From the NCBI RefSeq assembly GCF_023955655.1, contig NZ_JAMXHT010000002.1:1-64000 (forward strand): DNA of 64,000 bases, written 5' to 3'. Each line of letters opens with the position of its first letter. Positions within the stretch are counted from its first letter, which is position 1. The position numbers were made by a program, and so were the translations under genes. The stretch comes from Ralstonia soli (GTDB taxonomy: Bacteria; Pseudomonadota; Gammaproteobacteria; Burkholderiales; Burkholderiaceae). Positions 527 through 56,660 of this stretch are shown here, one piece after another. The notes below the pieces were generated by a model, which saw nothing but the letters and a program-made list of their open reading frames with translations, was not told the DNA's origin and ran no database searches.

Positions 527-571
527 TACTCCAAGCAGACGATTCGGCAGCGACACCCGATTGCCTACGCT
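527..571 (+). promoter_or_regulatory. Regulatory dyad (site A) and -10-like hexamer upstream of the DUF1302 gene
   Basis: TACTC-caagca-GACGAT lies at 527-543 and matches the recurrent dyad TAGTC-N6-GACGATG at all but one left-arm position. A TACGCT hexamer at 566-571 starts 31.5 bp from the dyad centre, close to the 30.5-bp spacing seen at other sites. The DUF1302 start codon is 69 bp downstream of the dyad. Confidence 0.55.
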
Positions 572-611
572 TCGCCGGCTATCTGACAGGTAGTCACACA
601 TAGGAGGAGCG

Positions 612-2174
612 ATGTACACGCAGCAACTTGGGTTGGGCGGGCCACGCGGACAGTGGTGCAGAACGGCGTTAGCGGCAGCATGCGCGGCAGTGATGATGCC
701 GGCGTGGGCGGGCAATACCATCGATCTGGGAGCGGACACCACGCTCGACTACCAGGCAACGGTGGGCTACGGGCTTGGCATGCGCACGCGTTCGCCGAGC
801 GGTACGTTGCTCTCGCCCGACAACATCAACGGCGACGATGGCGACCGCAACTTCAAGAAGGGGAGCCTGATTCAGAACCAGGTCAACTTCCTGGGCGAGG
901 GGGATCTCAAGCACGGCGACATGGGTTTCTTCCTGCGCTTCAGTGCGTTCTACGACCAGGCCTATCACCGGCCGAACGACAACAACGCGCCCGATACCGT
1001 CAACAAGGATGGCGCTTACAACGCATTCACCTCGGACGCACAGCATTTTCTTGGCGGACCCCGCGCGAAGCTGCTGTCGGCCTATGCGTACAACACTTTC
1101 AAATTTGCGGACACGGAGCTGAACGTCAAGCTGGGTAGCCAGGTCGTGCAATGGGGCGAGAGCCTGTATTTCGCCAACATTGCTGCCGCACAGGCCCCGG
1201 TGGATGCGGTCAAGGGCTATGTTGCCGGTGCCGAAGTCAAGGACATCCTGTTGCCGACACCGCAGTTGTCGATGCAGTGGAACCTGACGCCCAGCATCAG
1301 CTTGCTGGGCTACAAGCAGTTCCAGTTCCGGGAGAACCAGCTGGTGCCGCCGGGCGGCTACTTCAGCTATTCCGACGTGACCGGCCCGGGCTCGCAGTTC
1401 ATCACGGGTGACGGCTTTCAGATTCCGCGCGGCCCGGACATCAAGCCGAGCAGCCGCAATCAGTGGGGGGTAGGCGGCCGCTGGCGCGCCGAGCAGGGCA
1501 CGGAGTTCGGCCTGTATCACCTGCACTACAACGACACGAATCCCAACGTCGTCTTCAGTGTCTTTCCGACACTGCAATACCAGCAGACGTACTTCGACAA
1601 CATCAAGCTGACCGGGGCGAGCTTTTCGACGGATCTCTTCGGTGTGAATGTTGCCGGCGAAGCCTCGTACCGTCAGGGTGCGGCCGTGCTCGTCAACACC
1701 GCGGACGGCCCGCTGCCCACGCGAGGCAACGTCTGGCAAACCAATCTGTCGGCCATCTACACGATTGGCCCGACGCCGCTGGCGGCATCGCAGACGCTGG
1801 TTGGCGAAGTCTCTTACGTGCGCGTTGCCAGCGTGAAGCCGCTGGAGGGGTCGACCGAGTTGACCAACACGCGCGGCGCCCTGGCCGCAGAGGTGGGGTG
1901 GACGCTGAGCTACAAGAACGTGTTCGACGGCTGGGATCTGGATGTCCCGCTGACTTACGCCCACCAGTTCTCGGGCAACACGTCGCTGGCTGGGGCGCTC
2001 GGTGCATTGACCGGGGTAGGCGATACGCAGGTCTCGGCCGGCTTGACGTTCACGTACCACAGCAATCTGAAGCTCGGGATCGTGTACGCGAAGTTCCTCG
2101 GCACACCGAACGCGGTCACGCGCCCGCTGGCGGACCGCGACTACGTACTCGCCACCGCAACGTATTCGTTCTGA
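612..2174 (+). CDS. DUF1302 family outer-membrane protein
   Basis: This is a 520-residue protein with an N-terminal signal peptide (cleavage likely after PAWA, about residue 33) and a long body rich in Gly, aromatic and polar residues that ends in an aromatic (ATYSF), as expected of a beta-barrel outer-membrane protein of the DUF1302 family. AGGAGG at 602-607 is well placed before the ATG. It is followed 50 bp later by a DUF1329 gene, a pairing common in proteobacteria that degrade hydrophobic compounds. No biochemical role can be read from the sequence. The shared regulatory dyad suggests a role in moving steroid or lipid substrates across the outer membrane (inference). The other member of this putative system, an RND permease, lies at 47335. 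Confidence 0.8.
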   Translation: MYTQQLGLGGPRGQWCRTALAAACAAVMMPAWAGNTIDLGADTTLDYQATVGYGLGMRTRSPSGTLLSPDNINGDDGDRNFKKGSLIQNQVNFLGEGDLKHGDMGFFLRFSAFYDQAYHRPNDNNAPDTVNKDGAYNAFTSDAQHFLGGPRAKLLSAYAYNTFKFADTELNVKLGSQVVQWGESLYFANIAAAQAPVDAVKGYVAGAEVKDILLPTPQLSMQWNLTPSISLLGYKQFQFRENQLVPPGGYFSYSDVTGPGSQFITGDGFQIPRGPDIKPSSRNQWGVGGRWRAEQGTEFGLYHLHYNDTNPNVVFSVFPTLQYQQTYFDNIKLTGASFSTDLFGVNVAGEASYRQGAAVLVNTADGPLPTRGNVWQTNLSAIYTIGPTPLAASQTLVGEVSYVRVASVKPLEGSTELTNTRGALAAEVGWTLSYKNVFDGWDLDVPLTYAHQFSGNTSLAGALGALTGVGDTQVSAGLTFTYHSNLKLGIVYAKFLGTPNAVTRPLADRDYVLATATYSF

Positions 2175-2224
2175 TCGCGTTCTGACTTCTGACGCGTCTT
2201 TACCCTGACACAAGGAAATTGGAA

Positions 2225-3604
2225 ATGAAACGCAAACTTCGCCCCGCGCTGCGCGCCCTGGCATGGGTTGCCGGTACGACCCTCGCGCTGTCGGCATTCG
2301 CCAAGCTCACGCCTGAGGAGCTCAAGAAACTGGACGGCCCCCTCACGCCGATGGGCGCTGAGCGCGCCGGCAATGCCGATGGGTCCATTCCCGCCTGGAC
2401 GGGCAAGGTGCTCGGCGCACCGGCCGGCGTCGACTACAAGCCCGGCGAGCGCTACCCAGACCCGTACGCCAACGAGAAGCCCATCGCCGTGATCACGGCA
2501 AAGAACATGGCGCAGTACGAGTCGAAACTGACCGAAGGCACCAAGGCCATGTTCAAGCGCTATCCGGAGACGTTCAAGATCCCGGTGTACCCGAGCCATC
2601 GCGATTTCCGCTTGCCCGACGCCAAATACAAGGCCATTCACATGCAAGCCGCGCGCACGACCATGAACGAGAGCCAGAACGGGCTGCGCGACTTCCCGCC
2701 GATGGCGCCGTTCCCGATTCCGAAGTCGGGCGTGGAGTTGATGTGGAACCTGCGCCTGGCCGCCAGCCTCGTGGCGGAGGACGCGATCTACGACCAGGCG
2801 GTGGTGTATCCGAACGGCAACCTGGTGTGGGGCAAGACGACTTACACGATCTACGCTCCCGCGAGTTCGGACGTGTTCGACCCGAAGAATCCGCTGAACA
2901 GCAAGAGCTTCTTCCGGAACACCACGATCCTGCCGTTATCCGATCGCGGCACCATCATCACCGGATATGAAATGTGGGATCAGGACAGCGTCGACAACCG
3001 GCGCACGTGGGTCTACAACCCCGGGACGCGACGTGTGCGGCAGGCGCCCGAATTCGGCTTCGACCAGCCGCAGGGCCCCGGCGGCTTTCGCACCGTCGAT
3101 GACGATCGCCTGTTCAACGGCTCGGGGCTGCGCTACGACTGGAAGATCGTCGGCAAGCACGAGATGTACATCCCCTACGACAACTACAAGCTGATGGACC
3201 CGAACATCAAGTACGCGGCCATGCTGACGAAGGGGCATGAAAACATGGACTACATGCGCTTCGAGCTGCATCGCGTGTGGGTGCTGCAGGCCACGCTGAA
3301 GGAAGGCTACCGCCATCAGTACGCGAAGCGGGTGCTGTACATCGACGAAGACACCTGGAATGCAGTCGCCGCCGACAACTTCGATGCACGCGGCACGCTC
3401 TGGCGCACGAACTACATGGGCACGCTCTATGCCTTCGACGCCAAGGATTTTTATGCGACGGCGACTTTCTACCATGACCTGATCTCGGGCACGTACTACG
3501 CGGACCGCCTGACCAATGAAGGCCCGATGCCCGCTCTCACGCCAAACGCCAAATCGGTGGAGGGGTACTACACCGCTGACGCGATTCGCGGCGCCGGCAA
3601 GTAA
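2225..3604 (+). CDS. DUF1329 family periplasmic/outer-membrane-associated protein
   Basis: This is a protein of about 459 residues with a signal peptide (Arg/Lys-rich start, then ALAWVAGTTLALSAFA). The mature part begins KLTPEELKKL and matches the DUF1329 family in length and style (GAERAGN, GSIPAWTG and many WxY/FF motifs). I choose ATG 2225 because AAGGA at 2213-2217 is about 7 bp before it; an in-frame TTG at 2219 would be too close. It forms a two-gene unit with the DUF1302 gene and is followed by a strong hairpin at 3617-3646. By context it is a periplasmic or outer-membrane partner in a hydrophobic-substrate transport system, which is inference; the molecular function is unknown. Confidence 0.8.
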   Translation: MKRKLRPALRALAWVAGTTLALSAFAKLTPEELKKLDGPLTPMGAERAGNADGSIPAWTGKVLGAPAGVDYKPGERYPDPYANEKPIAVITAKNMAQYESKLTEGTKAMFKRYPETFKIPVYPSHRDFRLPDAKYKAIHMQAARTTMNESQNGLRDFPPMAPFPIPKSGVELMWNLRLAASLVAEDAIYDQAVVYPNGNLVWGKTTYTIYAPASSDVFDPKNPLNSKSFFRNTTILPLSDRGTIITGYEMWDQDSVDNRRTWVYNPGTRRVRQAPEFGFDQPQGPGGFRTVDDDRLFNGSGLRYDWKIVGKHEMYIPYDNYKLMDPNIKYAAMLTKGHENMDYMRFELHRVWVLQATLKEGYRHQYAKRVLYIDEDTWNAVAADNFDARGTLWRTNYMGTLYAFDAKDFYATATFYHDLISGTYYADRLTNEGPMPALTPNAKSVEGYYTADAIRGAGK

Positions 3605-3616
3605 CCGTGCAACGGC

Positions 3617-3646
3617 CCGGCCCGCCGCGCGGGTGCGGCGGGCCGG
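3617..3646 (+). terminator. Hairpin terminator after the DUF1302-DUF1329 pair
   Basis: A perfect 12-bp GC-only stem (3617-3628 with 3635-3646) and a 6-base loop lie 13 bp after the stop codon. The following tract is only moderately T-rich, so termination strength is uncertain. Confidence 0.55.
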
Positions 3647-3691
3647 TCGCGCTTCTCGTCGCCCGTGCCCGCTTGAATCTCATTTGAAAGC

Positions 3692-6281: not shown

Positions 6282-6689
6282 ATGACCATTGAACATCTGA
6301 ACCCCAGCGGTTTGCTCAGCTTCCCGCCGCTCACCCAGGTCGTCGTCACGGCGAGCCGCCGGTTGGCCTTCGTCGCTGGTCAGACGGCTTGCAACGCTCA
6401 GTACGAGGTGCTGGGTGGCAACGACTATCGTGCCCAATCGGAGCAGGCCCTGCGGCATCTGAAGATCGCCGTGGAGGCCGCCGGCGCGACCGTGCACCAG
6501 ATCGTCAGCAGCACGGTGTATTTGAAGGCACTGACACCCGAGGTGGCCGAGCAGTTCGTGGCTGCCCTGTCCACCGCATTGGACGGAGGACCGTTCCCGC
6601 CTCACGCCTTTACGATGGTTGGGGTCCAGGCGCTGGCTAGCCCAGAGGTGCTGGTTGAAATTTCGGCGGTGGTCGCGATCGACGACTGA
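6282..6689 (+). CDS. RidA/YjgF family protein (enamine/imine deaminase-like)
   Basis: This 135-residue protein starts 14 bp after the oxidoreductase stop, behind AAAGGAAA. The pattern (FVAGQTACNAQYEVLG near the N-terminus, QSEQALRHLKIAVEAAGAT in the middle, PPHAFTMVGVQALASPEVLVEISAVV at the end) is that of the Rid/YjgF/YER057c fold. The usual catalytic Arg of archetypal RidA (Asn/Pro-Arg before the last strands) is not obvious; the equivalent stretch reads HAFTMVGV. It may therefore belong to one of the Rid1-7 subgroups without deaminase activity. It probably handles reactive imines made by the upstream FAD oxidase. Confidence 0.75.
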   Translation: MTIEHLNPSGLLSFPPLTQVVVTASRRLAFVAGQTACNAQYEVLGGNDYRAQSEQALRHLKIAVEAAGATVHQIVSSTVYLKALTPEVAEQFVAALSTALDGGPFPPHAFTMVGVQALASPEVLVEISAVVAIDD

Positions 6690-6897
6690 TCGATCCGCGT
6701 TGGCGATGCGCCGGCGTCACGACCCAGTGATCGCGGTGGTGGCCGGCTTTCGGCCAACGCACCGCGGCCGGTGGACTGCGTACCCGCTGCGTACTGGCCA
6801 TGGTGAGGTCACCGCCATGATGTTCGATGTCTTGATTGGCCCATATCTGCCTCGCGCTATGATGCTGCGAACGAAGAAACGACCGAGTACAAGCAAG

Positions 6898-7476
6898 ATG
6901 ACAGTCAAGGCGGGGCCTGGGCGGAGCAGGCCGGGAGGTAGAACGGAGCAGGTGCGCAACGCCGTGACAGCGGCCGTGCTGCAGTTGATCGAGGCGGGGC
7001 AGATCGATTTTGAATTGCAGGAGGTGGCTCGCCTGTCAGGCGTGCATCGGACCACCATCCATCGCCGTTGGCCCGACAGAGCATCGCTGATTGCCGAGGC
7101 GCTAAGCGAACACACCTCGCACATCGACGTGCAGTTCACCGGCGACTGGCGTGCCGACATCCGGCACGTGGCCTTCGCGCTGCGGGACTTCCTGAGCAAT
7201 CCGGCCGAGGTCGCCATGAACACGCTTCTGGCCTCGACGGACAACGCGGAGTTCCGCGAAATGATGACGGGGCACTGGGGCACCGTGATGGCGGTCTTCC
7301 AGACGCCCATCCTCCAGGCACAGGCGCGCGGCGAGATCGATGCGCGGCATGATGCCGAGATGCTCGTTTCGATGATGATTGCGCCGATCGTGTCGAACAT
7401 CATCTTCATCAAGCAGACGCCGGATGACCGCTTTATGGAGCGCCTGGTGGCGCAACTGATCAACGCCTGTTCGTGA
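6898..7476 (+). CDS. TetR family transcriptional regulator
   Basis: This is a protein of about 192 residues with an N-terminal helix-turn-helix (DFELQEVARLSGVHRTTIHRRW, about residues 38-60) typical of TetR repressors, followed by an all-helical ligand-binding domain ending FMERLVAQLINACS. The start is uncertain. ATGs at 6817, 6859, 6862 and 6898 are in frame; 6898 is preferred because the protein then begins just before the basic arm (GRSRPGGRTEQVRNAV), but its SD sequence is weak. It follows the MFS-FAD-RidA genes and may control them. It converges tail-to-tail with LuxR regulator 1, leaving an 8-bp gap. Confidence 0.75.
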   Translation: MTVKAGPGRSRPGGRTEQVRNAVTAAVLQLIEAGQIDFELQEVARLSGVHRTTIHRRWPDRASLIAEALSEHTSHIDVQFTGDWRADIRHVAFALRDFLSNPAEVAMNTLLASTDNAEFREMMTGHWGTVMAVFQTPILQAQARGEIDARHDAEMLVSMMIAPIVSNIIFIKQTPDDRFMERLVAQLINACS

Positions 7477-7484: not shown

Positions 7485-8639
7485 TCAATGCTGCGGGATG
7501 ACGCTGTTGAAGATCGTCTGGATCAGCGCAGTCTGTCGTGTTACGCCCGCCTTTGAAAAGATCGTACGCAGATGCGCGCGCGCGGTGTTGCGGCTGATGT
7601 CCAGCGCTTGCGATGCCTCATCGAGGGAGAGGCCTTCCACCAGCAGCAGGACCAGTGAAGCCTCGGCGCGCGTGAAGTCGAACATGCTTCGCAGCAGTTC
7701 GGCGGAGGCCACGGCTTTCTGGTCAGGGTCTCGAATCAGCACCAGCGCCGCGGGACGGTGCTTGCTGCCGGACCAATCGACGGCGGAAACCGCGCGTACC
7801 AGGATGCCAAGCTTGGACCGGCCCGGGCTTCTGGTGATGGACAGGCCATTCGCAATGCCGGGCTGGGCGGCGCCAAACGTGCCGCTTGTAATCGCTTGCT
7901 GGATCAGCCCCTGCAGCTTGCGGTTTTCCACCGAGTGATCGCTGACCAAACGGCCGTTCATGAGGGCGATGCCATCCTGTTCCGCCAGCAGCGCCTCCGC
8001 GATCGAGTTGGTGCTCAGCACGTTGCCGCTTTCGTCGAGTGCCACGGAGCCGATGAGCAGACGGTCCACCGTCCCTTCGTAAAGCCGGCGCTGTGATTCG
8101 GTTGTGTTGAGGCCGTCGCGAATGCGCACCGCACGCCGCAGGTGCGGCAATAACAGCTTGCATAGCGCCTTGTCGGCGTCGGAGAACGGGGCAGCCGCGT
8201 GCGACCGGCAGACCCGCAGACGGCATTCGATACCGTGATCGGTACGAATATCGGCCCCCATGATGTGGAGCACATCGTAGGGCTTGTTGAAGAAGCGGTA
8301 GATCTCGCTCTCCAGCCACTGCTGCTGGCCGATCAACTCCTGCACGGTGACGACCTCATCGCGCGGCAAGTTGACGAAGGGATCGAGGGCATAGAAGTGT
8401 TGGGCATACGCGCCCGTTCCCACCGTTGTGTCGACAGCGCTGGAGGTCACCAGCAACCCGGCTGAGCCATCGGTCGGCGGGCGCAACACCAGCGTCACGT
8501 AGGTCGCTGAAAACTGGTGCCGCAGGGCATCGAGGAGCGTGCGCCACGGAATGTCGATGAGCACGCCCTCGTAGACCATGCCGATCAGTTCGGAGAGCGC
8601 GTCCATGTCGGGCGTCGGCTGATCGAGGTGGACGGTCAT
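7485..8639 (-). CDS. LuxR-type transcriptional regulator 1 (TeiR-like)
   Basis: This is a protein of about 384 residues with a C-terminal LuxR/GerE helix-turn-helix (FDFTRAEASLVLLLVEGLSL, then DISRNTARAHLRTIFSKAGV) and a long N-terminal sensory region. It is clearly paralogous to the regulator at 22529: both share WRTLLDALR/WARALELIR, the YALDPFV block, GADI-T-D-G-ECRLR and the HTH. The size and layout match TeiR, the LuxR-type testosterone-inducible activator of Comamonas testosteroni. The start is uncertain: ATG 8639 (MTVHLDQ) is chosen by comparison with the paralogue, but an upstream ATG at 8693 is in frame, and neither has a strong SD. It is divergent from KshA1, with dyad site B between them. 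It is a candidate activator of the regulon. Confidence 0.75.
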   Translation of the reverse strand: MTVHLDQPTPDMDALSELIGMVYEGVLIDIPWRTLLDALRHQFSATYVTLVLRPPTDGSAGLLVTSSAVDTTVGTGAYAQHFYALDPFVNLPRDEVVTVQELIGQQQWLESEIYRFFNKPYDVLHIMGADIRTDHGIECRLRVCRSHAAAPFSDADKALCKLLLPHLRRAVRIRDGLNTTESQRRLYEGTVDRLLIGSVALDESGNVLSTNSIAEALLAEQDGIALMNGRLVSDHSVENRKLQGLIQQAITSGTFGAAQPGIANGLSITRSPGRSKLGILVRAVSAVDWSGSKHRPAALVLIRDPDQKAVASAELLRSMFDFTRAEASLVLLLVEGLSLDEASQALDISRNTARAHLRTIFSKAGVTRQTALIQTIFNSVIPQH

Positions 8640-8968
8640 GATCGTTTCTGTGAGGGGTATGGAGCCATGTGTGTCCGGTACTGCATTGAGCACGGCCGTC
8701 TTGGTGCGCTGCTCGCTATGGGCAGAACATCATAGCGGCTTCCCCCAGCCGCTTCCATGGCCTCCAGTGGCGTTTGAGTGGCTTGCGCGCGCAATCTGTA
8801 TGCCCATGCATTCAATCTAATTGAAACGGACGATATTTTCGCCGTCGCGATATCGAAATCCGGCAGCAACCCGGCAGTCCGCTCACGCTTAGTCCGTATG
8901 CAGGATGTAGCCGCTTGTCCGCCAGCCAAACAATGTGCTCATCCAAGCAGGCATAACGGAGGAGCAAC
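8640..8968. other. Divergent intergenic region between LuxR 1 and KshA1
   Basis: This stretch of about 330 bp holds no gene. Its notable contents are dyad site B at 8818-8834 and the GGAGGAG ribosome-binding site just before 8969. The part nearest the LuxR gene shows no dyad that I can recognise. Confidence 0.5.
8818..8834 (+). promoter_or_regulatory. Regulatory dyad (site B) upstream of the KshA1 operon
   Basis: TAATT-gaaacg-GACGAT has a perfect right arm of the TAGTC-N6-GACGATG motif and a degenerate left arm (3 of 5). It lies 135 bp before KshA1, the longest distance of the set, and the -10-like hexamer at the standard spacing is poor. It is the weakest site. Confidence 0.4.
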
Positions 8969-10057
8969 ATGGCATCGCGGCCTCAAGTCGACACACATCG
9001 CACGGAAGATCGGTACGCACGCGGCTGGCACTGTCTCGGACTGGCATCCGGGTATAAGGACGGCAAGCCCCACAGTCTCAATATTTTCGGAACACGTCTG
9101 GTTGCCTTTGCGGGCGAGGACGGGCAGATCCACGTGCTCGACGCCTGGTGTCCGCACATGGGTGCAGATCTGGCGCTCGGAGAGGTGAAGGGCAATTCCA
9201 TCGTCTGCCGGTTTCACGCCTGGAGCTGGGGCGCGGACGGCGTCTGCAACGATATTCCTTGCGCCAAACGCATTCCGCCCAAGGCACGGACCCGGTCTTG
9301 GCAGACCTGCGAGCAGAACCACCTTCTGTTTATCTGGAACGACCCCGAAGGCTTGCCGCCGCCGCCCGCGGTGGCCATTCCGCGCATCAACGCCTGCTTC
9401 GCCGGCGAATGGACGGAGTGGGCGGTCCGCAAGATGGTGATCCACAACAACTGCCGCGAGCTTGTCGACAACCTTGCCGACGTGGCGCATTTCGGCCCCG
9501 TTCATGGTTCGCCGGCCAGCTATTTCTGCAACACCTTCGTCGGCCACGTCGGCTACCAGATGTTCCGCGGTATCCAGAGCGAACTGCTCGGGGATGGCCT
9601 GATCGCCGACAGTGCGTATTTCGGCCCGGCCTACCACATCACGCGGATGACGGCGGAGGTTGACGGCCAGCCGGTGCACACCATCCTGCTCAATTGCCAC
9701 GTGCCGATCGACCAGAACAGCTTCGAGCTGCGCTACGGCGTCATGGTCAAGAAGGTCGCCGGGCTGTCCGATGCGCAGAACGAACAGATCGCCCAGGCCT
9801 ACGTGGAACAGGCGCACAAATCCTTCTTCCAGGACGTCGAGATCTGGCACAACAAGGTCCGCATCGACCACCCCGTGCTCTCCGAAGTGGACGGCCCGAT
9901 CTATCAACTACGCGAGTGGTATCGGCAGTTCTATACGGATGCGGCAGACCTGCCGGCCGATCTGCACAAAGCGAAGGTGTTCGAACGCCGCGAGGGCGTC
10001 TGGCACACGCTCTCCGAGGTGCCCGCGGACGCGGTCAGCCAGTTGTCGTCCATCTGA
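8969..10057 (+). CDS. kshA: Rieske oxygenase, KshA-like (3-ketosteroid 9alpha-hydroxylase oxygenase), copy 1
   Basis: This is a 362-residue Rieske non-heme iron oxygenase. The Rieske cluster ligands are Cys61-x-His63 and Cys80-x2-His83. The mononuclear iron site follows in NLADVAHFGPVH (His174 and His179, with a distal Asp in FFQDVEIW). It is strikingly similar in layout to the second copy at 52212, and both match KshA, which 9alpha-hydroxylates 3-ketosteroids so that ring B opens after delta1-dehydrogenation. GGAGGAG precedes the ATG. It heads a seven-gene operon of reductive and ligase genes. Partner electrons would come from the KshB-like reductase at 30116. The precise steroid substrate, and why two copies exist, are unknown. 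Confidence 0.8.
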   Translation: MASRPQVDTHRTEDRYARGWHCLGLASGYKDGKPHSLNIFGTRLVAFAGEDGQIHVLDAWCPHMGADLALGEVKGNSIVCRFHAWSWGADGVCNDIPCAKRIPPKARTRSWQTCEQNHLLFIWNDPEGLPPPPAVAIPRINACFAGEWTEWAVRKMVIHNNCRELVDNLADVAHFGPVHGSPASYFCNTFVGHVGYQMFRGIQSELLGDGLIADSAYFGPAYHITRMTAEVDGQPVHTILLNCHVPIDQNSFELRYGVMVKKVAGLSDAQNEQIAQAYVEQAHKSFFQDVEIWHNKVRIDHPVLSEVDGPIYQLREWYRQFYTDAADLPADLHKAKVFERREGVWHTLSEVPADAVSQLSSI

Positions 10058-21358: not shown

Positions 21359-22177
21359 TCAGACGGCGAAGCTCGGTGCTTCGCCTTGCACGATGCGCTC
21401 GACGCGTGCCTTTGCGGCGGCCCGCGCTTCGTCGTGCGGCATGATCCAGAAGTCCCCCGCGGCAACGCCCGCGAGGATGTGTTGCGCCATCTCGTCGGCA
21501 GTCATCCCCTGTGCGATGCCGGTGCGCAGGGCGTGATTCATGTGGCTCACGCTGCCTGGCGCCTCGGTCGACAAGTTCTGTGCAATGCCAGTGGCTACCG
21601 GGCCGGGGCAGACCACCGACACCTTGAGCGGCAGGCCCGACGCCTGCACTTCCATCGCCAGCCCTTCGGTCAGGGCAACGACGCCCTGCTTGGAAATCGT
21701 GTACGGCGCCAGCCACGGACCGACTGCGAGCCCCGCCATCGAGGCGACGTTGACGATGTGGCCATGGCCTTGCGCGCTCATGCGCGGAACGAAGGCACGC
21801 AGCGCATGGATGACGCTCCACAGGTTGACGTTGAGCACACGTTCGTACACCCGCGTCTCCAGATCCCAGCACGGGCCGGTCGCCAGCACGCCAGCGTTGT
21901 TCACCAGCAGATCGACGTGGCCGAGGGTTTCGAAGCTGAAGGCGCAGAGTTGTTCGATCTGCGACGCATCCGCCACATCGGTGCGCAGGCATGCCACGGG
22001 GTGGCCGTAGCCCGCAGCTTCCGCTTGGACGCGCTCAAGTGCGGCAGCGTCCACGTCGGCCAGTACCAGGGCCCGACCCTGTTTGGCGAGGGCGAGTGCG
22101 AGCGCGCGCCCGATGCCGCCTGCCGCGCCGGTAATGACCGCTGTCGGAAGGGCTGCGTTGGCTTGGCTGGGTGGCAT
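21359..22177 (-). CDS. Short-chain dehydrogenase/reductase
   Basis: This 272-residue SDR has AVITGAAGGIG, Asp at the end of strand 2 (VLADVD, NAD type), NNAG, Ser in NVASMAG, YTISK as catalytic pair and VCPGPVATG. The C-terminal region lacks the usual DGG strand and instead ends with MTADEMAQHILAGVAAGDFWIMPHDEARA, a form found in SDRs acting on large hydrophobic substrates. AAGGAGA precedes ATG 22177. It is first in the six-gene minus-strand operon, with dyad site C about 96 bp upstream. Substrate unknown. Confidence 0.8.
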   Translation of the reverse strand: MPPSQANAALPTAVITGAAGGIGRALALALAKQGRALVLADVDAAALERVQAEAAGYGHPVACLRTDVADASQIEQLCAFSFETLGHVDLLVNNAGVLATGPCWDLETRVYERVLNVNLWSVIHALRAFVPRMSAQGHGHIVNVASMAGLAVGPWLAPYTISKQGVVALTEGLAMEVQASGLPLKVSVVCPGPVATGIAQNLSTEAPGSVSHMNHALRTGIAQGMTADEMAQHILAGVAAGDFWIMPHDEARAAAKARVERIVQGEAPSFAV

Positions 22178-22245: not shown

Positions 22246-22289
22246 TTTCTATCGGCGGACCCCATGCGAGACATCGTCCGTTTGAACGA
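22246..22289 (-). promoter_or_regulatory. Regulatory dyad (site C) and -10-like hexamer for the minus-strand operon
   Basis: On the minus strand the site reads TCGTT-caaacg-GACGAT (22273-22289), with the right arm perfect. A TAGAAA hexamer (minus strand, plus positions 22246-22251) begins 30.5 bp from the dyad centre, the spacing seen at other sites. The SDR start at 22177 is 96 bp away. Confidence 0.5.
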
Positions 22290-22437
22290 GGTGCATGCTG
22301 CTGCGCTGGACCACATTAGGGGCCAGGCCCCTGCAGAACGCGCGCGCGTTCCGCAGTTGAAAAGCGCGGGTATTGGAGTGAGGAGGATTCGGGCAAACCA
22401 CTAGCCTTCCCGTGCTGCCCTGCACAAGCACGACTTC

Positions 22438-22528: not shown

Positions 22529-23716
22529 ATGTTGATGGAGGCCACCCACACCGATGGGCGGAGCGTCCGCGCCCAGTCGACGCCGCTGTCATTGACGGAG
22601 TTCGGCACACTGCTGGGGTCGATCTATCAAGGGGCAATGGACCCGGTGCCATGGGCCCGTGCGCTTGAGCTGATCCGCACGTATCTGTGCGCGAACTATG
22701 TATCGCTGATCCTGCGCCCGCCCGGGGCCGATCGGCTCTCGCTGGCGGTGCATGCCTCGCCTGAAGGCTATTCCACGCTGGAAGGGGACGCGATCTACAA
22801 CAGCTACTACTACGCGCTCGATCCGTTTGTCGGATTGCCCACGGACCGGCTGATCACGGTGGACGAGCACATCGGCGTCAACCAGTGGTGCAACAGCGAC
22901 TTCTATCAGCAGTTCGCCAAGCCGTCTGATGTGCGCTTCATTCTGGGTGCCGATATCACGACCGACGACGGCGCGGAATGCCGCTTGCGCATCTGCCGCG
23001 GACATGACGGCCCCGACTTCAGCGCCGAAGACAAGCTGTTCTGCAGCATGATCGTGCCGCATCTGCGGCGCGCGGTGGACTTGCATTCGCGCATGGACGT
23101 GGTGGAAACGGAGCGCACGCTCTACGCCTCGGCCATCGATCGGATGCTGGTCGGCATGGCCATCCTCGACCAGAACGGCGCCATCATCCGCACCAACTCG
23201 GCGGCCGATGAGATCCTGGCCGAGAAAGACGGCATCAGCCTCGTCAAGGGTGCGCTTGAAGTGAACTACGCGCAGGAGAACCGGCGCTTCCAGCGCGTGT
23301 TGCGCGAGGCCGTCTCCGGCTACTGCAGTTCAGCGCTGCCGGTGGTGGAGGCGATGTCGATCACGCGGCCTTCGGGCAAGGCGCGCTTTGGCGTGCTGAT
23401 CCGCTCGATTCCGCTGGGCGAGTGGTCGGAAGACAGCAAGAGCCGGCCGGCCTGCGTGATTTTCATTCGCGATCCGGAGCGCAAGTCGCAAGCCTCGCAG
23501 GAGGTCGTGCGCAAGCTGTTCGATTTCACGCCGGCCGAAACGCAGCTTGCGCTGCAGCTGGCTGACGGCCTCACGCTTGAAGAGGCGGCCGATGAACTCT
23601 GCATTGCCAAGAACACGGCGCGTGCCCATTTGCGGGCCATCTTTGCCAAGACCGGCGTGACGCGGCAAGCGACGCTGGTGCGCATGCTGCTGAGCAGCGT
23701 GGTGTCGCTGGGCTAG
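22529..23716 (+). CDS. LuxR-type transcriptional regulator 2 (TeiR-like)
   Basis: This 395-residue protein is paralogous to LuxR 1 at 7485-8639. The N-terminal sensing part includes WARALELIRTYLCANYVSLILRPPG and the block YYALDPFVGLPTDRLITVDEH; the C-terminal HTH is FDFTPAETQLALQLADGLTL followed by CIAKNTARAHLRAIFAKTGV. ATG 22529 is preferred because TTGGAGA at 22514-22520 is well spaced; the longer open frame upstream has no SD. Known LuxR-type steroid regulators such as TeiR activate steroid genes in C. testosteroni. I infer that this one, or its paralogue, binds the TAGTC-N6-GACGATG sites. It is followed by a strong terminator. Confidence 0.75.
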   Translation: MLMEATHTDGRSVRAQSTPLSLTEFGTLLGSIYQGAMDPVPWARALELIRTYLCANYVSLILRPPGADRLSLAVHASPEGYSTLEGDAIYNSYYYALDPFVGLPTDRLITVDEHIGVNQWCNSDFYQQFAKPSDVRFILGADITTDDGAECRLRICRGHDGPDFSAEDKLFCSMIVPHLRRAVDLHSRMDVVETERTLYASAIDRMLVGMAILDQNGAIIRTNSAADEILAEKDGISLVKGALEVNYAQENRRFQRVLREAVSGYCSSALPVVEAMSITRPSGKARFGVLIRSIPLGEWSEDSKSRPACVIFIRDPERKSQASQEVVRKLFDFTPAETQLALQLADGLTLEEAADELCIAKNTARAHLRAIFAKTGVTRQATLVRMLLSSVVSLG

Positions 23717-24141: not shown

Positions 24142-24462
24142 TTGAGTCTTCCTCACAGATAAGGCGCACGGGCGCCGCAATGACGAGGCACACGTGCCTG
24201 CCCGGCATGCCGCGTGCAGCAAGGCTCTGGCGATGGCACGTATGCAAAGGCGGTACGCCGTGCATGGCTTGCTGCGCTTTGGCGCACCACGGCACATGTT
24301 ATGGATCGCGCGCCGCTTCGCATAATCCAATCAGACGATGTTGCGAGCCTGTCTCCCGAACACACTGCTTGCATGCAGGCCCATGTCACTGCACCGCCGG
24401 CATCGCCAGAGGCGACGCGCCGGACGACGGCCTGGCTGAACAAATCCATCGGAGACACAGCA
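24142..24462. other. Divergent intergenic region, VOC gene / luciferase-like gene
   Basis: This 321-bp stretch has no supported gene; the plus frame leading into the luciferase-like gene is open but lacks a start with an SD. It contains dyad site D at 24323-24339. Confidence 0.45.
24323..24366 (+). promoter_or_regulatory. Regulatory dyad (site D) upstream of the luciferase-like oxidoreductase
   Basis: TAATC-caatca-GACGATG at 24323-24340 matches the consensus at all but one left-arm position. CACACT at 24361-24366 (fits xAxxxT) begins 30.5 bp from the centre. The gene starts 124 bp after the dyad. Confidence 0.6.
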
Positions 24463-25636: not shown

Positions 25637-25680
25637 TAGTCCCGTCAGACGATGGCAGCCGGCGGCGGCAGTGCGAGCAT
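25637..25680 (+). promoter_or_regulatory. Regulatory dyad (site E) upstream of hsaA
   Basis: TAGTC-ccgtca-GACGATG at 25637-25654 is a full consensus match. GAGCAT at 25675-25680 lies at the standard 30.5-bp spacing but is a weak -10. The hsaA start is 79 bp after the dyad. Confidence 0.65.
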
Positions 25681-33418: not shown

Positions 33419-33462
33419 TAGTCTCAATAGACGATGTAGGAAGCTGTCTTCAGCCGAACAAT
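33419..33462 (+). promoter_or_regulatory. Regulatory dyad (site F) upstream of hsaC/tesB
   Basis: TAGTC-tcaata-GACGATG at 33419-33436 is a full consensus match. AACAAT at 33457-33462 begins 30.5 bp from the centre. The tesB start is 106 bp after the dyad. This promoter would drive the longest predicted operon in the window, reaching to 50996. Confidence 0.7.
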
Positions 33463-42435: not shown

Positions 42436-43688
42436 CTGGCAAATCAAAGGTTGAGAAGAGCATGACTTCAGTCGATTGCAGCGCTCCGGAAACGAGCGAA
42501 GCCGCGCTGCGCGAAGCCGTGGCAGCGTGGATGGCGGAACATCTGACAGGTGAATTCGCCTGCCTGAAGCATCGCGGCGGGCCGGGAGATGAAGAAGCGT
42601 TTCCCGAGCTGCGCAAGGCCTGGGAGCGCAAGCTGGCCGAAGGCGGCTGGACCTGCGTGGGCTGGCCCGAGGCGCACGGCGGACGCAATCTCTCGGTGAT
42701 GGAGCAGGTGGCCTTCCAGGAGGAATACGCGCGTGCCGGCGGCCCGGGCCGCATGGGCCACATCGGCGAAGGCTTGATCGGCCCTACGCTCATCGCCTAC
42801 GGCACCGAAGACCAGAAGGCGCGCTTCCTGCCGGGCATCCGCAACGGCACCGAACTCTGGTGCCAGGGCTATTCGGAACCGGGCGCCGGTTCGGACCTCG
42901 CCAATGTACGCACCCGCGCCGAGCGCGATCCGGCCACGGGTGACTGGATCGTGACGGGCCAGAAGGTGTGGACGTCGCTCGCGCACGAATCGGAATGGAT
43001 CTTCGTGCTGGCGCGCAGCGAGGCGGGCTCCCAGGGCAACCGCGGGCTGATCTTCCTGCTGATGCCGCTGGACCAGCCGGGCATCGAGATCCGCCCGATC
43101 CGCCAGATGGGCGGCGGTGCCGAGTTCAACGAGGTCTTCTTTGATGGCGCGCGAGCCAAGGCCGCAGACGTGGTGGGCGCGCCGGGCGAGGGCTGGCGCA
43201 TTGCCATGGCGCTGCTGGGCTTCGAGCGCGGCATCTCCACGCTCGGCCAGCAGATGCAGTTTGCGCATGAACTCGGCTGGATCGTGGACGCTGCGCGCGA
43301 GAACGGCGCATGGCGCGACCCGGTACTGCGGCGGCGCATTGCACGCGCCTGGTCCGGCCTGCGGGTCATGCGCTACAACGCGCTGCGCATGCTGGCCGGC
43401 GCGCAGGGCGCAGACAGCGGCACAGGAAGTGGCGCATTACAGCGCGAAGCGCTGATCTACAAGTACTACTGGTCCAACTGGCATCGGGACCTGGGGCAGC
43501 TTGCACTGGATGTGCTCGGCCCCGAGGCCAACCTCATCGACGAGACCAACACGCGCCGCACCCGCCTGCAAGGCATGGCGCTGTTCTCCCGCGCCGACAC
43601 CATCTACGCCGGCACCAACGAAATCCAACTCAACATCATCGCCGAGCGCGGCCTGGGCATGCCGCGCGAAGCACGGGGACAAGCATGA
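42432..43688 (+). CDS. Acyl-CoA dehydrogenase, flavin-binding subunit of a heteromeric pair
   Basis: This ACAD of about 418 residues has CQGYSEPGAGSDLANVRTRAER (about 142-163), KVWTSLAHESEWIFVLARSE, IRQMGGGAEFNEVFFD and the C-terminal FSRADTIYAGTNEIQLNIIAERGLGMPR. It overlaps the preceding degenerate ACAD by ATGA (42432) and the following SDR by ATGA (43685). An alternative start, ATG 42462 (MTSVDCSAPE), has a GAGAAGAG SD-like sequence and would give 408 residues; I cannot decide firmly between the two. It is the FAD-containing half of the second heteromeric dehydrogenase. Confidence 0.8.
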   Translation: MTGKSKVEKSMTSVDCSAPETSEAALREAVAAWMAEHLTGEFACLKHRGGPGDEEAFPELRKAWERKLAEGGWTCVGWPEAHGGRNLSVMEQVAFQEEYARAGGPGRMGHIGEGLIGPTLIAYGTEDQKARFLPGIRNGTELWCQGYSEPGAGSDLANVRTRAERDPATGDWIVTGQKVWTSLAHESEWIFVLARSEAGSQGNRGLIFLLMPLDQPGIEIRPIRQMGGGAEFNEVFFDGARAKAADVVGAPGEGWRIAMALLGFERGISTLGQQMQFAHELGWIVDAARENGAWRDPVLRRRIARAWSGLRVMRYNALRMLAGAQGADSGTGSGALQREALIYKYYWSNWHRDLGQLALDVLGPEANLIDETNTRRTRLQGMALFSRADTIYAGTNEIQLNIIAERGLGMPREARGQA

Positions 43689-44518
43689 ACACCATTTCCG
43701 ATACCACGCATTCCAACGGCGCGGCACAGGGCGTGCGCGCTGCGCCCGCCTACGTTCCTGGCCATGGCCTGCTGAAGGGGCGCAGCGTGCTGATCACGGC
43801 GGCCGCCGGGGTCGGCATCGGCTTTGCGGCGGCGCGCCGGTGTGTTGAGGAAGGCGCACGCGCGCTGATGATCTCCGACATCCACCCCCGCCGCCTGGAA
43901 GAGGCCGTCGCCAAGCTGCGCGCCGAAACCGGCCTGGAGGCCATCTACGGCCAGTTGTGCGACGTCTCCAACGAAGAACAGGTCCAGGCACTGGTTGCCG
44001 CGGCAGAAGAAGCACTGGGCGGCACCGACGTGCTGATCAACAACGCGGGCCTCGGCGGGTCGCGCCGCATAGTCGAGATGGACGATGCCGAATGGCTCCG
44101 AGTGCTCGACATTACCCTCACCGGCACGTTCCGGATGACGCGGGCGATGTTGCCGCACATGCAGTCGCGCGGGCGCGGCGCCATCGTCAACAACGCGTCG
44201 GTGCTCGGGTGGCGCGCGCAGAAGGAGCAAGCGCACTACGCAGCGGCCAAGGCCGGCGTGATGGCGCTCACACGCTGCAGCGCGATGGAAGCCGCCGAGT
44301 TTGGCGTGCGCATCAATGCGGTGGCGCCCAGCATCGCCTTGCACGATTTCCTGAAGAAATCGGCGCCGGCGGAGCTGCTGGAGCAACTGGCCGCACGCGA
44401 GGCGTTCGGGCGTGCCGCCGAAGTGTGGGAAGTGGCCAATGTGATGGTGTTCCTGGCCAGCGACTACGCCTCGTACATGACAGGAGAAGTGCTCCCGGTG
44501 AGCAGCCAGCAGGCATGA
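43685..44518 (+). CDS. Short-chain dehydrogenase/reductase of the HIP operon
   Basis: This 277-residue SDR has a 27-residue N-terminal lead (APAYVPGHGLLKGRS) before VLITAAAGVGIG, where the usual TGxxxGxG reads TAAAGVGIG (first Gly is Ala). Catalytic motif: NNASVLGWRAQKEQAHYAAAKAG. NNAG is intact (LINNAGLGG). The end GEVLPVSSQQA lacks the typical DGG. It is translationally coupled to the ACAD upstream. Similar SDRs with an N-terminal lead occur in actinobacterial HIP clusters. The likely role is hydroxyacyl-CoA oxidation; substrate not shown. Confidence 0.75.
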   Translation: MNTISDTTHSNGAAQGVRAAPAYVPGHGLLKGRSVLITAAAGVGIGFAAARRCVEEGARALMISDIHPRRLEEAVAKLRAETGLEAIYGQLCDVSNEEQVQALVAAAEEALGGTDVLINNAGLGGSRRIVEMDDAEWLRVLDITLTGTFRMTRAMLPHMQSRGRGAIVNNASVLGWRAQKEQAHYAAAKAGVMALTRCSAMEAAEFGVRINAVAPSIALHDFLKKSAPAELLEQLAAREAFGRAAEVWEVANVMVFLASDYASYMTGEVLPVSSQQA

Positions 44519-51108: not shown

Positions 51109-51945
51109 TCAGAAGTTGAGTCCGTTCCCGGTGATGACCGGCATGTTGGTCCACACGCCGCGTGCGTCGCGATACCAGCCTGCAGCCGCCAGCGCGCCAC
51201 CGTCTACGTGCAGCGTGGTGCCGCTGACCCAACCGGCCAGCGGGCTGGCCAAGTACAGCGCGGCACCTGCCGCATCTTCAGGCGTGCCGAAGCGCCCCAG
51301 CGGAATCCATTGCGACATCCGCTCTCGATGTTCCGGCGCGATCATGACTGAGAGCGGCAACTGCGGCGTCTCGGTCGATTCCGGTGCGATCAGGTTGACG
51401 CGGATTCCGGCGGGACCGAGTTCCAATGCCAGGCTCTTGGTGAGCCCGCTCAATGCGGCTTTGCAGGCCGCATACACGCTGCAATTGGGAATGGCGCGGA
51501 ACCCCTCGATGGACGACAGGCTGATGATGCTGCCGCCTGGGCCGTTGTGCCGCAGCAGCGGAATCATGGCGCGCGTGACCAGGAAGACCTGCTTCAGATT
51601 GACGTCATACAGGCGCTGGATATCGCTGTCTGTATAGGCCTCGAACGGCTTGGCAATCATCAGCGAATCGCCCACGTTATTGATCAGCACATCCAGGCCG
51701 CCGAAGCGCTCGTCCACGGCTTTCACGAGGTGCGCAACCTGATCGCCCTGCGTCACATCGGCTTGCACGATGACGTGGTCGACGCCGGCGGCGTCAAGCC
51801 ACGCACTCACGTCGGCGGCGCGCTGCGCGTTGACCTCTGCGATTGCCAGGCGCGCGCCGGCGCGTGCGAACGCTTCCACGATGGCGCGCCCGATACCCGC
51901 GCCGCCGCCCGTCACGAGCACTGTCTTGCCATTGAAATCGAGCAT
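51109..51945 (-). CDS. Short-chain dehydrogenase/reductase
   Basis: This 278-residue SDR begins MLDFNGKTVLVTGGGAGIGRA; ATG 51945 is supported by GAGGAGAC just upstream on the minus strand, and the longer open frame is not needed. Motifs: LINNVG (a variant of NNAG), SLSSIEG and VYAACK as catalytic residues, and VDGG. The C-terminal tail (AAAGWYRDARGVWTNMPVITGNGLNF) is extended. It is transcribed divergently from KshA2, with its own dyad site G about 64 bp upstream. Single-gene unit; substrate unknown. Confidence 0.8.
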   Translation of the reverse strand: MLDFNGKTVLVTGGGAGIGRAIVEAFARAGARLAIAEVNAQRAADVSAWLDAAGVDHVIVQADVTQGDQVAHLVKAVDERFGGLDVLINNVGDSLMIAKPFEAYTDSDIQRLYDVNLKQVFLVTRAMIPLLRHNGPGGSIISLSSIEGFRAIPNCSVYAACKAALSGLTKSLALELGPAGIRVNLIAPESTETPQLPLSVMIAPEHRERMSQWIPLGRFGTPEDAAGAALYLASPLAGWVSGTTLHVDGGALAAAGWYRDARGVWTNMPVITGNGLNF

Positions 51946-51981
51946 GCCGTCTCCTCGTTTTGATTTGCGTTGATTTCGCTG

Positions 51982-52025
51982 ATTCTCGAGTCCGGGTGCG
52001 TGCGTCACATCGTCCAACGGGACTA
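51982..52025 (-). promoter_or_regulatory. Regulatory dyad (site G) upstream of the minus-strand SDR
   Basis: On the minus strand it reads TAGTC-ccgttg-GACGATG (plus 52008-52025), a full match. GAGAAT (plus 51982-51987) begins 30.5 bp from the centre. It lies back-to-back with site H, which serves the divergent KshA2 operon about 107 bp away. Confidence 0.7.
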
Positions 52026-52116
52026 ACGGTCAAAAAGGGGGGAAAGGCGGAAAAGGCGGGCAGAAGCGGTCGTGCAACCCAGCGCAATGCGTGGTCGCAG
52101 CCGTGGGGATGGCCCC

Positions 52117-52160
52117 TAGTCCGATGGGACGATGAGCGCGGCGTGTGCTGCAAGTAAGGT
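52117..52160 (+). promoter_or_regulatory. Regulatory dyad (site H) upstream of the KshA2 operon
   Basis: TAGTC-cgatgg-GACGATG at 52117-52134 is a full match. TAAGGT at 52155-52160 lies at the 30.5-bp spacing and is a fair -10. KshA2 starts 79 bp after the dyad. Confidence 0.7.
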
Positions 52161-52211
52161 CACTCTGGGCTGCCAAGACAGGCGGCATAAAGCCAACAAT
52201 CAGGAGACGAC

Positions 52212-53288: not shown

Positions 53289-53318
53289 TCTGCCAGATCA
53301 ATCAACGAGGGGAACGTT

Positions 53319-54185
53319 GTGTCTTCCAGCAATCAACCGCTTGTGGCTGTCGTCACAGGTGCTTCGCGTGGCGCCGGCAAGGGCATTGCCCTGGCGCTCG
53401 GCGCCGCCGGCGCTACGGTGTACGTCACCGGCCGTTCGCAGCAGGAAGGCGACGCCGCACTGCCCGGCACCATCTGGTCGACCGCAGACGAGATCGACAA
53501 GGCGGGCGGCAAGGGCATCGCCGTGCCGTGCGACCACAGCGACGATCGTCATGTCCAAACGCTGTTCGAGCGCGTGTCGCGCGAGCATGGCCGGTTGGAC
53601 ATCCTGGTCAATAACGCCACTTTCCTGCATGACGAACTGACCGTGCGCGGCGGGTTCTGGCAGAAGCCGCTCGACATGGTCGACATCCTCAATGTCGGCC
53701 TGCGATCGGGCTACGTGGCGAGCTGGTTTGCCGCGCCGTTGATGATCAAACAGCGTCGCGGGCTGATTGCCTTCACGTCGTCGTTTGGTTCGAGCTGCTA
53801 CATGCACGGGCCGGCCTACGGCGCGCAGAAGGCCGGCGTCGACAAGTTCGCCAAGGACATGGCCGTGGACCTGCGCGCGCACAACGTCGCGGCAGTGTCG
53901 ATCTGGATGGGCATGCTCAAGACCGAGCGCAGCATGCGTTCACTGGCACGCGCCCCGGATCAGTACGCCGAGTTTGCCGCGATGGCGGAAACGCCGGAGT
54001 TCACCGGCAAGGTCATCCATGCGCTGTATCGCGATCCGAATCTCATGAGCAAATCGGGCCAGGTGCTGATCGGCGCAGAAGTCGCGCAGGAATACGGCAT
54101 TCAGGATGCCGACGGCAAGCAGCCGCCGTCTCATCGCGAGATGCTGGGCAGCCCCGCCCAGGCACATCCGGCCATCGTGGATTGA
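53319..54185 (+). CDS. SDR related to DHRS1-type proteins
   Basis: This 288-residue SDR starts at GTG 53319 with GAGGGG about 7 bp upstream. Its layout, VAVVTGASRGAGKGIALALGAAGATVYVTGRS, then GTIWSTADEIDKAGGKGIAVPCDHSDD, and the motif AYGAQKAGVDKFAKDMAVDLR, is that of the eukaryote-like DHRS1 group; NNAG reads NNAT. Arg after the second strand (TGRS) suggests NADP(H). It lies between KshA2 and the FAD dehydrogenase. Possible role: steroid ketone reduction or alcohol oxidation; unproven. Confidence 0.75.
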   Translation: MSSSNQPLVAVVTGASRGAGKGIALALGAAGATVYVTGRSQQEGDAALPGTIWSTADEIDKAGGKGIAVPCDHSDDRHVQTLFERVSREHGRLDILVNNATFLHDELTVRGGFWQKPLDMVDILNVGLRSGYVASWFAAPLMIKQRRGLIAFTSSFGSSCYMHGPAYGAQKAGVDKFAKDMAVDLRAHNVAAVSIWMGMLKTERSMRSLARAPDQYAEFAAMAETPEFTGKVIHALYRDPNLMSKSGQVLIGAEVAQEYGIQDADGKQPPSHREMLGSPAQAHPAIVD

Positions 54186-54215
54186 TCGACACCTCTTTGC
54201 TTGCGAGCGCGCTTC

Positions 54216-55697: not shown

Positions 55698-55758
55698 TCT
55701 TTGATCGGACGCCTTCACGCGAAGGCCCAAGAGAACAAGAGGACAAGAGGAAATCACG

Positions 55759-56517
55759 ATGAAAGAATTCAACGACAAGGTGGTGCTCATCACCGGCGGG
55801 TCAACCGGCATCGGCCGCGCGGCTGCCGCGGCATTTGCACGTGACGGCGCCAAGCTGGTGCTGGCCGACGTGAATGCCGACGTGGGTGAAGCCTTTGCCG
55901 CCGAACTGCGCAAGGGCGGCAGTGATGCCCTCTTCGTGCGGACTGACGTGTCCCGCGCGGAAGACTGCGAAGCCATGGTGGCTCGGGCCCTGGAGACGTT
56001 CGGGCGGCTGGATGTCGCATTCAACAACGCGGGTATTTCGGATGCGCCGCAAACCGCCACGCCGGAGTATTCGCTCGATCTGTGGGAGAAGATCATCGGC
56101 ATCAACCTGTCGGGCGTCTTCTATTGCATGCGCTACGAGATTCCGGCGCTGCTCAAGTCGGGCGGCGGCGCCATCATCAACACGTCGTCGATTGCGGGGC
56201 AGATTGCATTCCCCGGCACGGCGGGCTACACGGCCAGCAAGCACGGTGTGGTGGGCCTGACCAAGGTGGTGGCCGCCGAATACGGCGCGCGCGGCATCCG
56301 CTGCAACGCGCTCGCGCCGGGCATGATCGAAACGCCCATGACCAAAGCCGCGCTGGACTCCGAACAGGCCCGCGCTGCGATGCTCCCGGGCATTCCGGCC
56401 AGGCGCTTCGGCAAGCCCGAGGAAATGGCCGACGTGGTCGTCTGGCTGGGGTCTTCGCGCGCGAGCTACGTCAACGGCGCCTATATCGCGGCCGACGGCG
56501 GTTATCTGATCCAGTAA
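55759..56517 (+). CDS. Short-chain dehydrogenase/reductase
   Basis: This 252-residue classical SDR has KVVLITGGSTGIGRAAAAAFARDGAKLVLADVNAD (Asp for NAD), NNAGISDAP, NTSSIAG, YTASK and AADGGYLIQ. It is complete and of normal length, with all motifs. It ends the KshA2 operon and is followed by a strong palindromic terminator. It could be a hydroxysteroid dehydrogenase for the 3-, 7-, 12- or 17-position. Nothing in the sequence separates these. Confidence 0.8.
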   Translation: MKEFNDKVVLITGGSTGIGRAAAAAFARDGAKLVLADVNADVGEAFAAELRKGGSDALFVRTDVSRAEDCEAMVARALETFGRLDVAFNNAGISDAPQTATPEYSLDLWEKIIGINLSGVFYCMRYEIPALLKSGGGAIINTSSIAGQIAFPGTAGYTASKHGVVGLTKVVAAEYGARGIRCNALAPGMIETPMTKAALDSEQARAAMLPGIPARRFGKPEEMADVVVWLGSSRASYVNGAYIAADGGYLIQ

Positions 56518-56562
56518 CGGCCTCGTCGCACTGGATGCGATCAAGTCGTGTCTTCAAGCATT

Positions 56563-56588
56563 GGCCCCGCATATGCGGGGCCTTTTTT
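56563..56588 (+). terminator. Palindromic Rho-independent terminator after the KshA2 operon
   Basis: GGCCCCGCATATGCGGGGCC (56563-56582) is a perfect 20-bp palindrome (8-bp GC stem, ATAT loop) followed by TTTTTT (56583-56588), a canonical terminator. Confidence 0.9.
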
Positions 56589-56616
56589 CATTCAGCCGTC
56601 GGGCAACGCCGCCTCG

Positions 56617-56660
56617 TAGTCTGTAAAGACGATTCGGCACGCGCACGCAAAACGTAGCGT
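56617..56660 (+). promoter_or_regulatory. Regulatory dyad (site I) upstream of the SDR pair
   Basis: TAGTC-tgtaaa-GACGAT at 56617-56633 matches the consensus. TAGCGT at 56655-56660 begins 30.5 bp from the centre. The first SDR starts 72 bp after the dyad, just downstream of a terminator, so it opens a new unit. Confidence 0.65.

Follow-up and report, generated by a model that had tools for sequence, protein, structure and literature searches.

Class II operators bound by LuxR-family activators are a well-known kind of regulatory element, and the lux box, a dyad of about 20 bp recognised by a protein with a GerE-type helix-turn-helix (HTH), lies near -42 and overlaps the -35 hexamer. Among steroid degraders, the steA-tesR cluster of Comamonas testosteroni TA441 contains tesB and ends with the gene of the positive regulator TesR, according to the available part of PMC13101464. 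TesR is required for the induction of tesB-tesR, tesA1-tesG and tesA2-ORF18 in the excerpt of PMC6895838, which also repeats the claim that tesR-like genes are confined to C. testosteroni. The present work deals with a stretch of 64,000 nucleotides, hereafter the window, which forms positions 1-64000 of contig NZ_JAMXHT010000002.1 (C12) in the Ralstonia soli genome GCF_023955655.1 (5,726,971 bases, 31 contigs). The original prediction had described a recurring dyad, TAGTC-N6-GACGATG, before nine transcription units of its steroid locus (sites A to I) and had proposed a single regulon. All nine strings were found again with their positions and strands. The element is very probably the operator of a LuxR activator of the TesR/TeiR type, which would co-induce the units of the steroid island.

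The motif and its fixed -10-like hexamer

The steroid island extends beyond the window, to about 92 kb of C12. The element was refined to T[A/C]GTCY-N4-RGACGATG, and the form TAGTCYNNNNRGACGAT (TAGTCY-N4-RGACGAT) has 10 exact matches genome-wide, all located in C12:25637-91451, that is within 66 kb of the steroid island. Five of them, inside the window, are sites E, F, G, H and I; the others are found at C12:71489, 72555, 82116, 91379 (- strand) and 91435. Every one of the 10 is intergenic, though intergenic DNA makes up about 8.7% of C12:1-92000 by the gene calls of this analysis. The looser TAGTC-N6-GACGATG gives 12 exact matches in the genome, 10 in C12:25637-91452 and two elsewhere. At the one-mismatch level, TAGTCY-N4-RGACGAT occurs at 15 more places, five of these in C12:1-92000, and when seven off-island stretches with matches (on C28, C31, C30, C26, C9 and C2, and C12:177-184 kb) were rescanned, three showed one one-mismatch site each. 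With up to two mismatches, the 267 genome matches of TAGTCYNNNNRGACGAT (142+125) represent no excess over the 327 (166+161) of the reversed control; such counts are uninformative, so that only the exact and one-mismatch levels, or a model that includes the -10, discriminate. The confinement of the exact matches to the steroid island supports the single regulon proposed at the outset.

The fixed-distance -10-like hexamer is new here. In the exact R. soli sites, A40 and T44 (motif numbering) occur jointly in 10 of 10, while any other offset between 19 and 100 gives at most one of 10; in non-redundant foreign sites the same pair is present in 48 of 77, the next best offset reaching 8. An alignment of 94 sites, left from 190 after removal of sites sharing 60% identity or more across 177 bases and including seven relaxed R. 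soli sites added by hand, contains one strong downstream block (A40 67%, A42 56%, A43 57%, T44 78%), together with A51 in 51%. A scoring model made of the motif plus the -10 was trained on 77 sites from the loci of other organisms only. On C12:1-118000 it gives 20 matches above 14 bits, whereas first-order Markov sequences, of which 20 were scored, average 0.1 (highest random match 22.3 bits); three of the 20 matches on C12 are the opposite direction of places already counted (22274, 24322 and 71488). The model recovered C, D, E, F, G, H and I, as well as a site at 8890, without training on sites of this genome.

The promoters at 527 and 70406, like those at 72555 and 82116, resemble one another beyond the motif, as would suit a spread of the sites by duplication or transfer of whole promoters without selection as operators. 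This explanation is nevertheless extremely improbable, given that across the 94 non-redundant sites the information per position does not exceed 0.26 bits between motif and -10, but reaches 2.4 within the motif and 1.25 within the -10.

The -10-like hexamer occupies motif positions 39-44, which would place +1 near position 51 and the centre of the motif near -41.5. With a spacing of 17 bp, the -35 hexamer would then occupy positions 16-21 and begin with the ATG that terminates the motif. Such a placement of the operator over the -35 would correspond to class II activator geometry, and the most fitting interpretation of the element is an activator operator at a set distance from a -10, which refines the simple dyad described earlier. 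It is very unlikely that the element is instead a promoter read by an alternative sigma factor, composed of a conserved upstream box plus a -10. The spacing from box to -10 is indeed fixed, and positions 16-21 share a mean of 2.7 of 6 letters with TTGACA, against 1.4 at random positions, but the matching TG is the motif's own. The box is moreover a dyad, complete in some divergent promoters, part of which have -10s on both sides; the spacing of the -10 is as for sigma-70, and the element co-occurs with a LuxR family in genome samples searched for LuxR rather than sigma-factor genes.

Putative LuxR regulators and conservation of the element

The window encodes two TesR-like regulators, LuxR1 (7485..8639, - strand) and LuxR2 (22529..23716, + strand), and sequence similarity reveals a third paralogue outside it, LuxR3 (C12:73600-74742, - strand). 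LuxR1 carries a GerE HTH at its C terminus (PF00196, just above the cut-off) and PF00196 is also found in LuxR2; in a Pfam search of these two proteins at E 0.001, only GerE exceeded its cut-off and no autoinducer-binding domain was detected. LuxR1 is 45% identical to LuxR2, the identities of LuxR1 and LuxR3 to it lying at 43-48%, and the next relative in the genome falls to 22-24%. The two LuxR proteins and a TetR protein had been put forward as candidate regulators; the LuxR proteins are retained as putative binders, three paralogues instead of two, among which LuxR2 is favoured. A candidate site of 16.7 bits at C12:74822-74838 (- strand), within the 3' end of a cysNC-like gene and 80 bases before LuxR3, points to a possible autoregulation.

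Conservation was studied in the loci of the best 80 of at least 552 confirmed LuxR relatives in named genomes (1.59 Mb, near-copies kept), which include Cupriavidus, Paraburkholderia, Burkholderia, Pandoraea, Pseudomonas, Pseudoduganella, a Comamonas metagenome-assembled genome (MAG) and a Binataceae MAG. The exact pattern gives 88 sites in 46 of the 80 loci. Shuffled-letter patterns, up to 200 of them, occur 0.135 times on average and 7 times at most, the 7 coming from one pattern close to the real motif. When the flanks are left free, the core GTCY-N4-RGAC is followed by the -10 at 80 of 321 non-redundant places in the LuxR loci, where about 12 are expected. On the promoter side, these 80 places have G15 in 71, A16 in 69, T17 in 54 and G18 in 73; at position 2, A is found in 51 of them and C in 26. 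Across 20 genomes or records to which LuxR loci led, TMGTCYNNNNRGACGATG matches 125 times, each palindrome scoring on both strands, and the reversed control 3 times. The 125 matches are clustered in genomes such as G378, where one contig holds 12 of 13 inside about 70 kb, and W01 (6 of 6 within 45 kb), and scattered in some others, for example G374, with 3 of 8 on another contig.

The genes downstream were tallied for 189 sites in 95 loci, near-copies kept. No island-matching gene lies within the set limits for 37 of these sites; the remainder precede relatives of island genes, most commonly an HsaA-like dehydrogenase (27), the alpha/beta hydrolase g065 (21), the hydrolase g019 (16) and KshA (16), then the short-chain dehydrogenase/reductase (SDR) g020 (15), DUF1302 (12), KstD-like (11) and TesB-like dioxygenase (11) proteins. 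The arrangement of motif and -10 precedes orthologous steroid genes in other genera, in Burkholderiales as well as in Pseudomonas, an enrichment in related genomes that bears out the original proposal. In a Comamonas MAG (G369) and in G224, the LuxR family member, to which LuxR2 is 37% and 41% identical respectively, closes a cluster that opens with a TesB-like gene. Sites of 34.4 and 35.8 bits precede the TesB-like gene of these two genomes, and sites of 33.4 bits an HsaA-like gene. Marked TesB-like and HsaA-like genes in the clusters of the family member are expected, because TesR is needed to induce steroid clusters in the excerpt of PMC6895838. Sites stand before TesB-like, HsaA-like, KshA-like and hydrolase genes, including tesB- and tesA2-type units. 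If these LuxR relatives are counted as TesR-like, their presence in other genera would speak against the confinement of such genes to C. testosteroni.

Further loci extend this distribution. Over about 19-40 kb, the window is collinear with a Caballeronia plasmid (L026), which carries sites at the positions corresponding to C (in both directions), D, E and F, and a Vibrio plasmid whose LuxR is 38% identical has four matches of at least 26 bits in 41 kb, two of them being both directions of one place; both loci belonged to the training set of the model. For the distant LuxR proteins of sphingomonads, three plasmids, all outside the training set, were scanned of 303 records with a match. The Sphingobium sp. 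TomTYG64 plasmid (L122, AP027328.1) carries at 9720 (- strand) a 24.8-bit site before an annotated 3-ketosteroid-9-alpha-monooxygenase oxygenase subunit (KshA), and in Novosphingobium (L124) a weak 18.0-bit site precedes a luciferase-like gene beside the distant LuxR. By the model, no site was found in the third plasmid (L123), whose LuxR HTH reads ENTVRAHLR instead of NTARAHLR. A contig of a MAG named Candidatus Binataceae (L087, JASHPB010000098.1) combines a 57% identical LuxR with the same operators, a finding due either to transfer into a different phylum or to misbinning of the contig.

Two genome samples allow the co-occurrence to be followed independently of the choice of loci. In the order sample, the LuxR is present at E <=1e-40 in 3 of 250 genomes (G000, the window's own, G224 and G608), and their site counts are 9, 9 and 6, whereas none of the other 247 exceeds 5 (reached in G436 and G618). 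An IpdA-type CoA-transferase is found at E <=1e-50 in the same three genomes. In G608, five of the six matches, two of them forming one palindrome, lie within 22 kb on the same contig as its LuxR and CoA-transferase genes. In the class sample, 2 of 369 genomes have the LuxR (G000 and G224, 9 sites each) and the others have at most 4 sites. Five genomes of this sample possess the CoA-transferase, and no exact site is present in the three without the LuxR (G017, G161 and the 84% complete G244), which argues, on few positives, that the element tracks the regulator rather than the pathway.

These data bear on another possible binder. Dyad operators are typical of TetR repressors, and a different regulator of the island, for example the TetR-family protein of frame 6619-7476, might bind the element as a repressor. 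Steroid genes are governed elsewhere by the TetR repressors EdcR and KstR, as the available part of PMC8700777 relates. This attribution is nonetheless very unlikely: the TetR gene's own unit has no model match, the element tracks the LuxR family in the genome samples (a comparison made for the LuxR and not for the distribution of the TetR gene), and the fixed position over the -35 fits an activator better than a TetR repressor.

The symmetry of the dyad was analysed on 84 non-redundant rows of 180. TAGTC sites (n=55) have a good -10 in 93% of cases forward and 7% backward (shifted control 5%). For the TCGTC rows preceded by A (12 rows, representing 6 places seen from both sides) the proportion is 58% each way, and for those without a preceding A (n=17) it is 94% forward and 35% backward. 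Symmetry thus tends to go with two-way promoters, a tendency based on small numbers and on a -10 score trained partly on the same sites.

The following mechanism can be proposed for the LuxR operator. A LuxR dimer would bind the dyad CATCGTCC-N4-GGACGATG, the promoter-distal arm of which is usually degenerate (TAGTC), presumably in response to a steroid-derived inducer. With the operator centred near -41.5, the proximal ATG would cover the position of the -35 hexamer, 17 bp before the -10-like hexamer, and the activator, once bound, would bring in RNA polymerase as class II activators do, at promoters whose -35 is poor. Where two units diverge, a palindrome between them could serve both directions, and any of the three paralogues might be the one that acts at a given site. 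On balance, it is probable that a single operator code is common to the TesR-type LuxR proteins of proteobacterial steroid degraders, those of Burkholderiales, Pseudomonas and Vibrio and perhaps of sphingomonads. In this code the dyad would stand at a constant 20 bp ahead of the -10, the distal arm would vary with the direction (TAGTC one-way, ATCGTC palindrome two-way) and the proximal ATG would double as -35 contact.

Several facts weigh against the attribution of the element to a LuxR activator. No site of the form TNGTCYNNNNRGACGAT, in which any base is allowed at position 2, exists in 16 of the 80 loci; one of these, a second Comamonas MAG locus (L085) whose LuxR is 58% identical, also has no match above 16 bits in 21 kb. 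As the 80 loci were picked by their LuxR gene, only the two genome samples test the co-occurrence without bias, and these samples share G000 and G224, so that the distinct genomes with the LuxR number three, that of R. soli included. Sites A, 8890 and 77777 are degenerate and one site (44070) lies in a coding region. Finally, the accessible parts of PMC6678751 and PMC8399759 describe TeiR as a polar membrane kinase. A direct class II activator model would have no need of such a kinase activity.

Individual predicted operators and neighbouring genes

As predicted operators, eight of the nine sites originally listed hold, A only weakly. Operator A, TACTCCAAGCAGACGATT (527..544, + strand), reaches 12.4 bits, with a -10 TACGCT at 566-571, one base further out, and precedes a DUF1302-DUF1329 pair; it resembles the promoter at C12:70406. 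The latter (- strand) is the own predicted operator of a second DUF1302-DUF1329 pair (C12:67302-70315), which resembles the pair at 612-3604. Site B, placed originally at 8818, fails, with less than 9 bits and no -10, and is replaced in the same intergenic gap by TAGTCCGTATGCAGGATG (8890..8907, + strand; 20.9 bits), whose -10 AACAAT (8929-8934) is also one base further out, before the KshA-type gene 8969-10057.

Operator C, a near-palindrome at 22272..22291 given originally at 22273, is flanked by the SDR gene 21359-22177 (-) and LuxR2 (+) and scores on both strands, with 24.0 bits on the - strand and 18.0 on the + strand. Its sequence is degenerate; a divergent site exists at the equivalent place of the Caballeronia plasmid. 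Operator D, TAATCCAATCAGACGATG (24323..24340, + strand; 26.9 bits; -10 CACACT, 24361-24366), precedes a luciferase-like monooxygenase gene, and its TAATC variant recurs before the orthologue at L026:21764. The exact operator E (25637..25654, + strand; -10 GAGCAT, 25675-25680) heads a unit of acyl-CoA-dehydrogenase-like, FAD (KstD-like), flavin reductase, KshB-like and ligase genes, the first of which has relatives downstream of 27 sites in other loci (near-copies kept). Operator F, also exact (33419..33436, + strand; 36.0 bits; -10 AACAAT, 33457-33462), precedes a TesB/HsaC-like dioxygenase gene, relatives of which follow 11 sites elsewhere; its unit would comprise the co-directional genes to about 50996.

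The dyad had been described as intergenic throughout, which is true for the nine places listed, but a further one-mismatch site (44070..44087, + strand; 24.1 bits; -10 GACATT, 44108-44113) lies inside the SDR gene 43685-44518. It may be a chance match or an internal promoter of the long ring-degradation unit. In the Comamonas MAG and G224, a site is found just upstream of the gene orthologous to this SDR gene, which is not the same place.

The last three operators are exact, I over 17 bases. Operator G (52008..52025, - strand; 34.3 bits; -10 GAGAAT, 51982-51987) precedes the SDR gene 51109-51945, and H (52117..52134, + strand; 28.6 bits; -10 TAAGGT, 52155-52160) a second KshA-type gene, KshA relatives being preceded by 16 sites in other loci. 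Operator I (56617..56634, + strand; 21.6 bits; -10 TAGCGT, 56655-56660) stands before the SDR genes 56705-58298. The MFS-FAD-RidA, EXORDIUM-like, Baeyer-Villiger and drug-efflux genes had been said to lack the element, and the model gives no match above 9 bits upstream of the MFS, FAD-oxidoreductase, RidA-like, 58476, flavin-monooxygenase or efflux genes.

Outside the window, an 83-codon frame (C12:72674-72925; L009:10674-10925) follows AAGGAG and starts 119 bases past the exact site at 72555, which has a -10. Its N terminus looks signal-like in our reading. This frame would add a secreted-looking protein of 83 residues to the predicted steroid regulon.

Comparison with described systems

The operator code and its spread appear to be new. 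No TesR/TeiR operator was found in the literature search, an absence of little weight since the primary TeiR/TesR papers were outside its scope, and a text search for the letters of the motif gave nothing on the subject among the matches listed. An operator with a fixed -10 would designate promoters that can be tested and predicts members of the regulon, such as the small secreted-looking protein and the two DUF1302-DUF1329 pairs. For TesR-type proteins, the choice between a kinase and a DNA-bound activator becomes directly testable, and a use in steroid biosensors is possible. If true, a shared operator code would allow the steroid regulon to be read from sequence and would imply that TesR is a DNA-bound class II activator.

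With the lux box, the R. soli element shares the dyad, the position and the GerE-type HTH of its putative binder, whereas its sequence differs and no autoinducer-binding domain was detected by Pfam in LuxR1 or LuxR2. KstR/KstR2 and EdcR are comparable in that one dyad operator coordinates several steroid units (PMC8700777 and PMC6678751, in the parts available). Unlike the proposed activator, they are TetR repressors with another operator sequence, and the EdcR palindrome TnnCnnTACnAnTnGTAnnGnnA, as given in PMC8700777, overlaps the -10. In the pdc cluster of Caenibius tardaugens, a LuxR gene lies beside a luciferase-like monooxygenase gene, just as LuxR2 of R. soli is near the luciferase-like gene under operator D; the available portion of PMC12239570 gives no operator for this cluster. 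The TesR/TeiR regulon of C. testosteroni, with its LuxR-type positive regulator, differs by the three paralogues of R. soli and by the description of TeiR as a membrane kinase. It is alike in the cluster position of the family member and in the marked TesB-like and HsaA-like genes, a likeness that rests on the members found in the Comamonas MAG and G224 rather than on TesR of TA441 itself.

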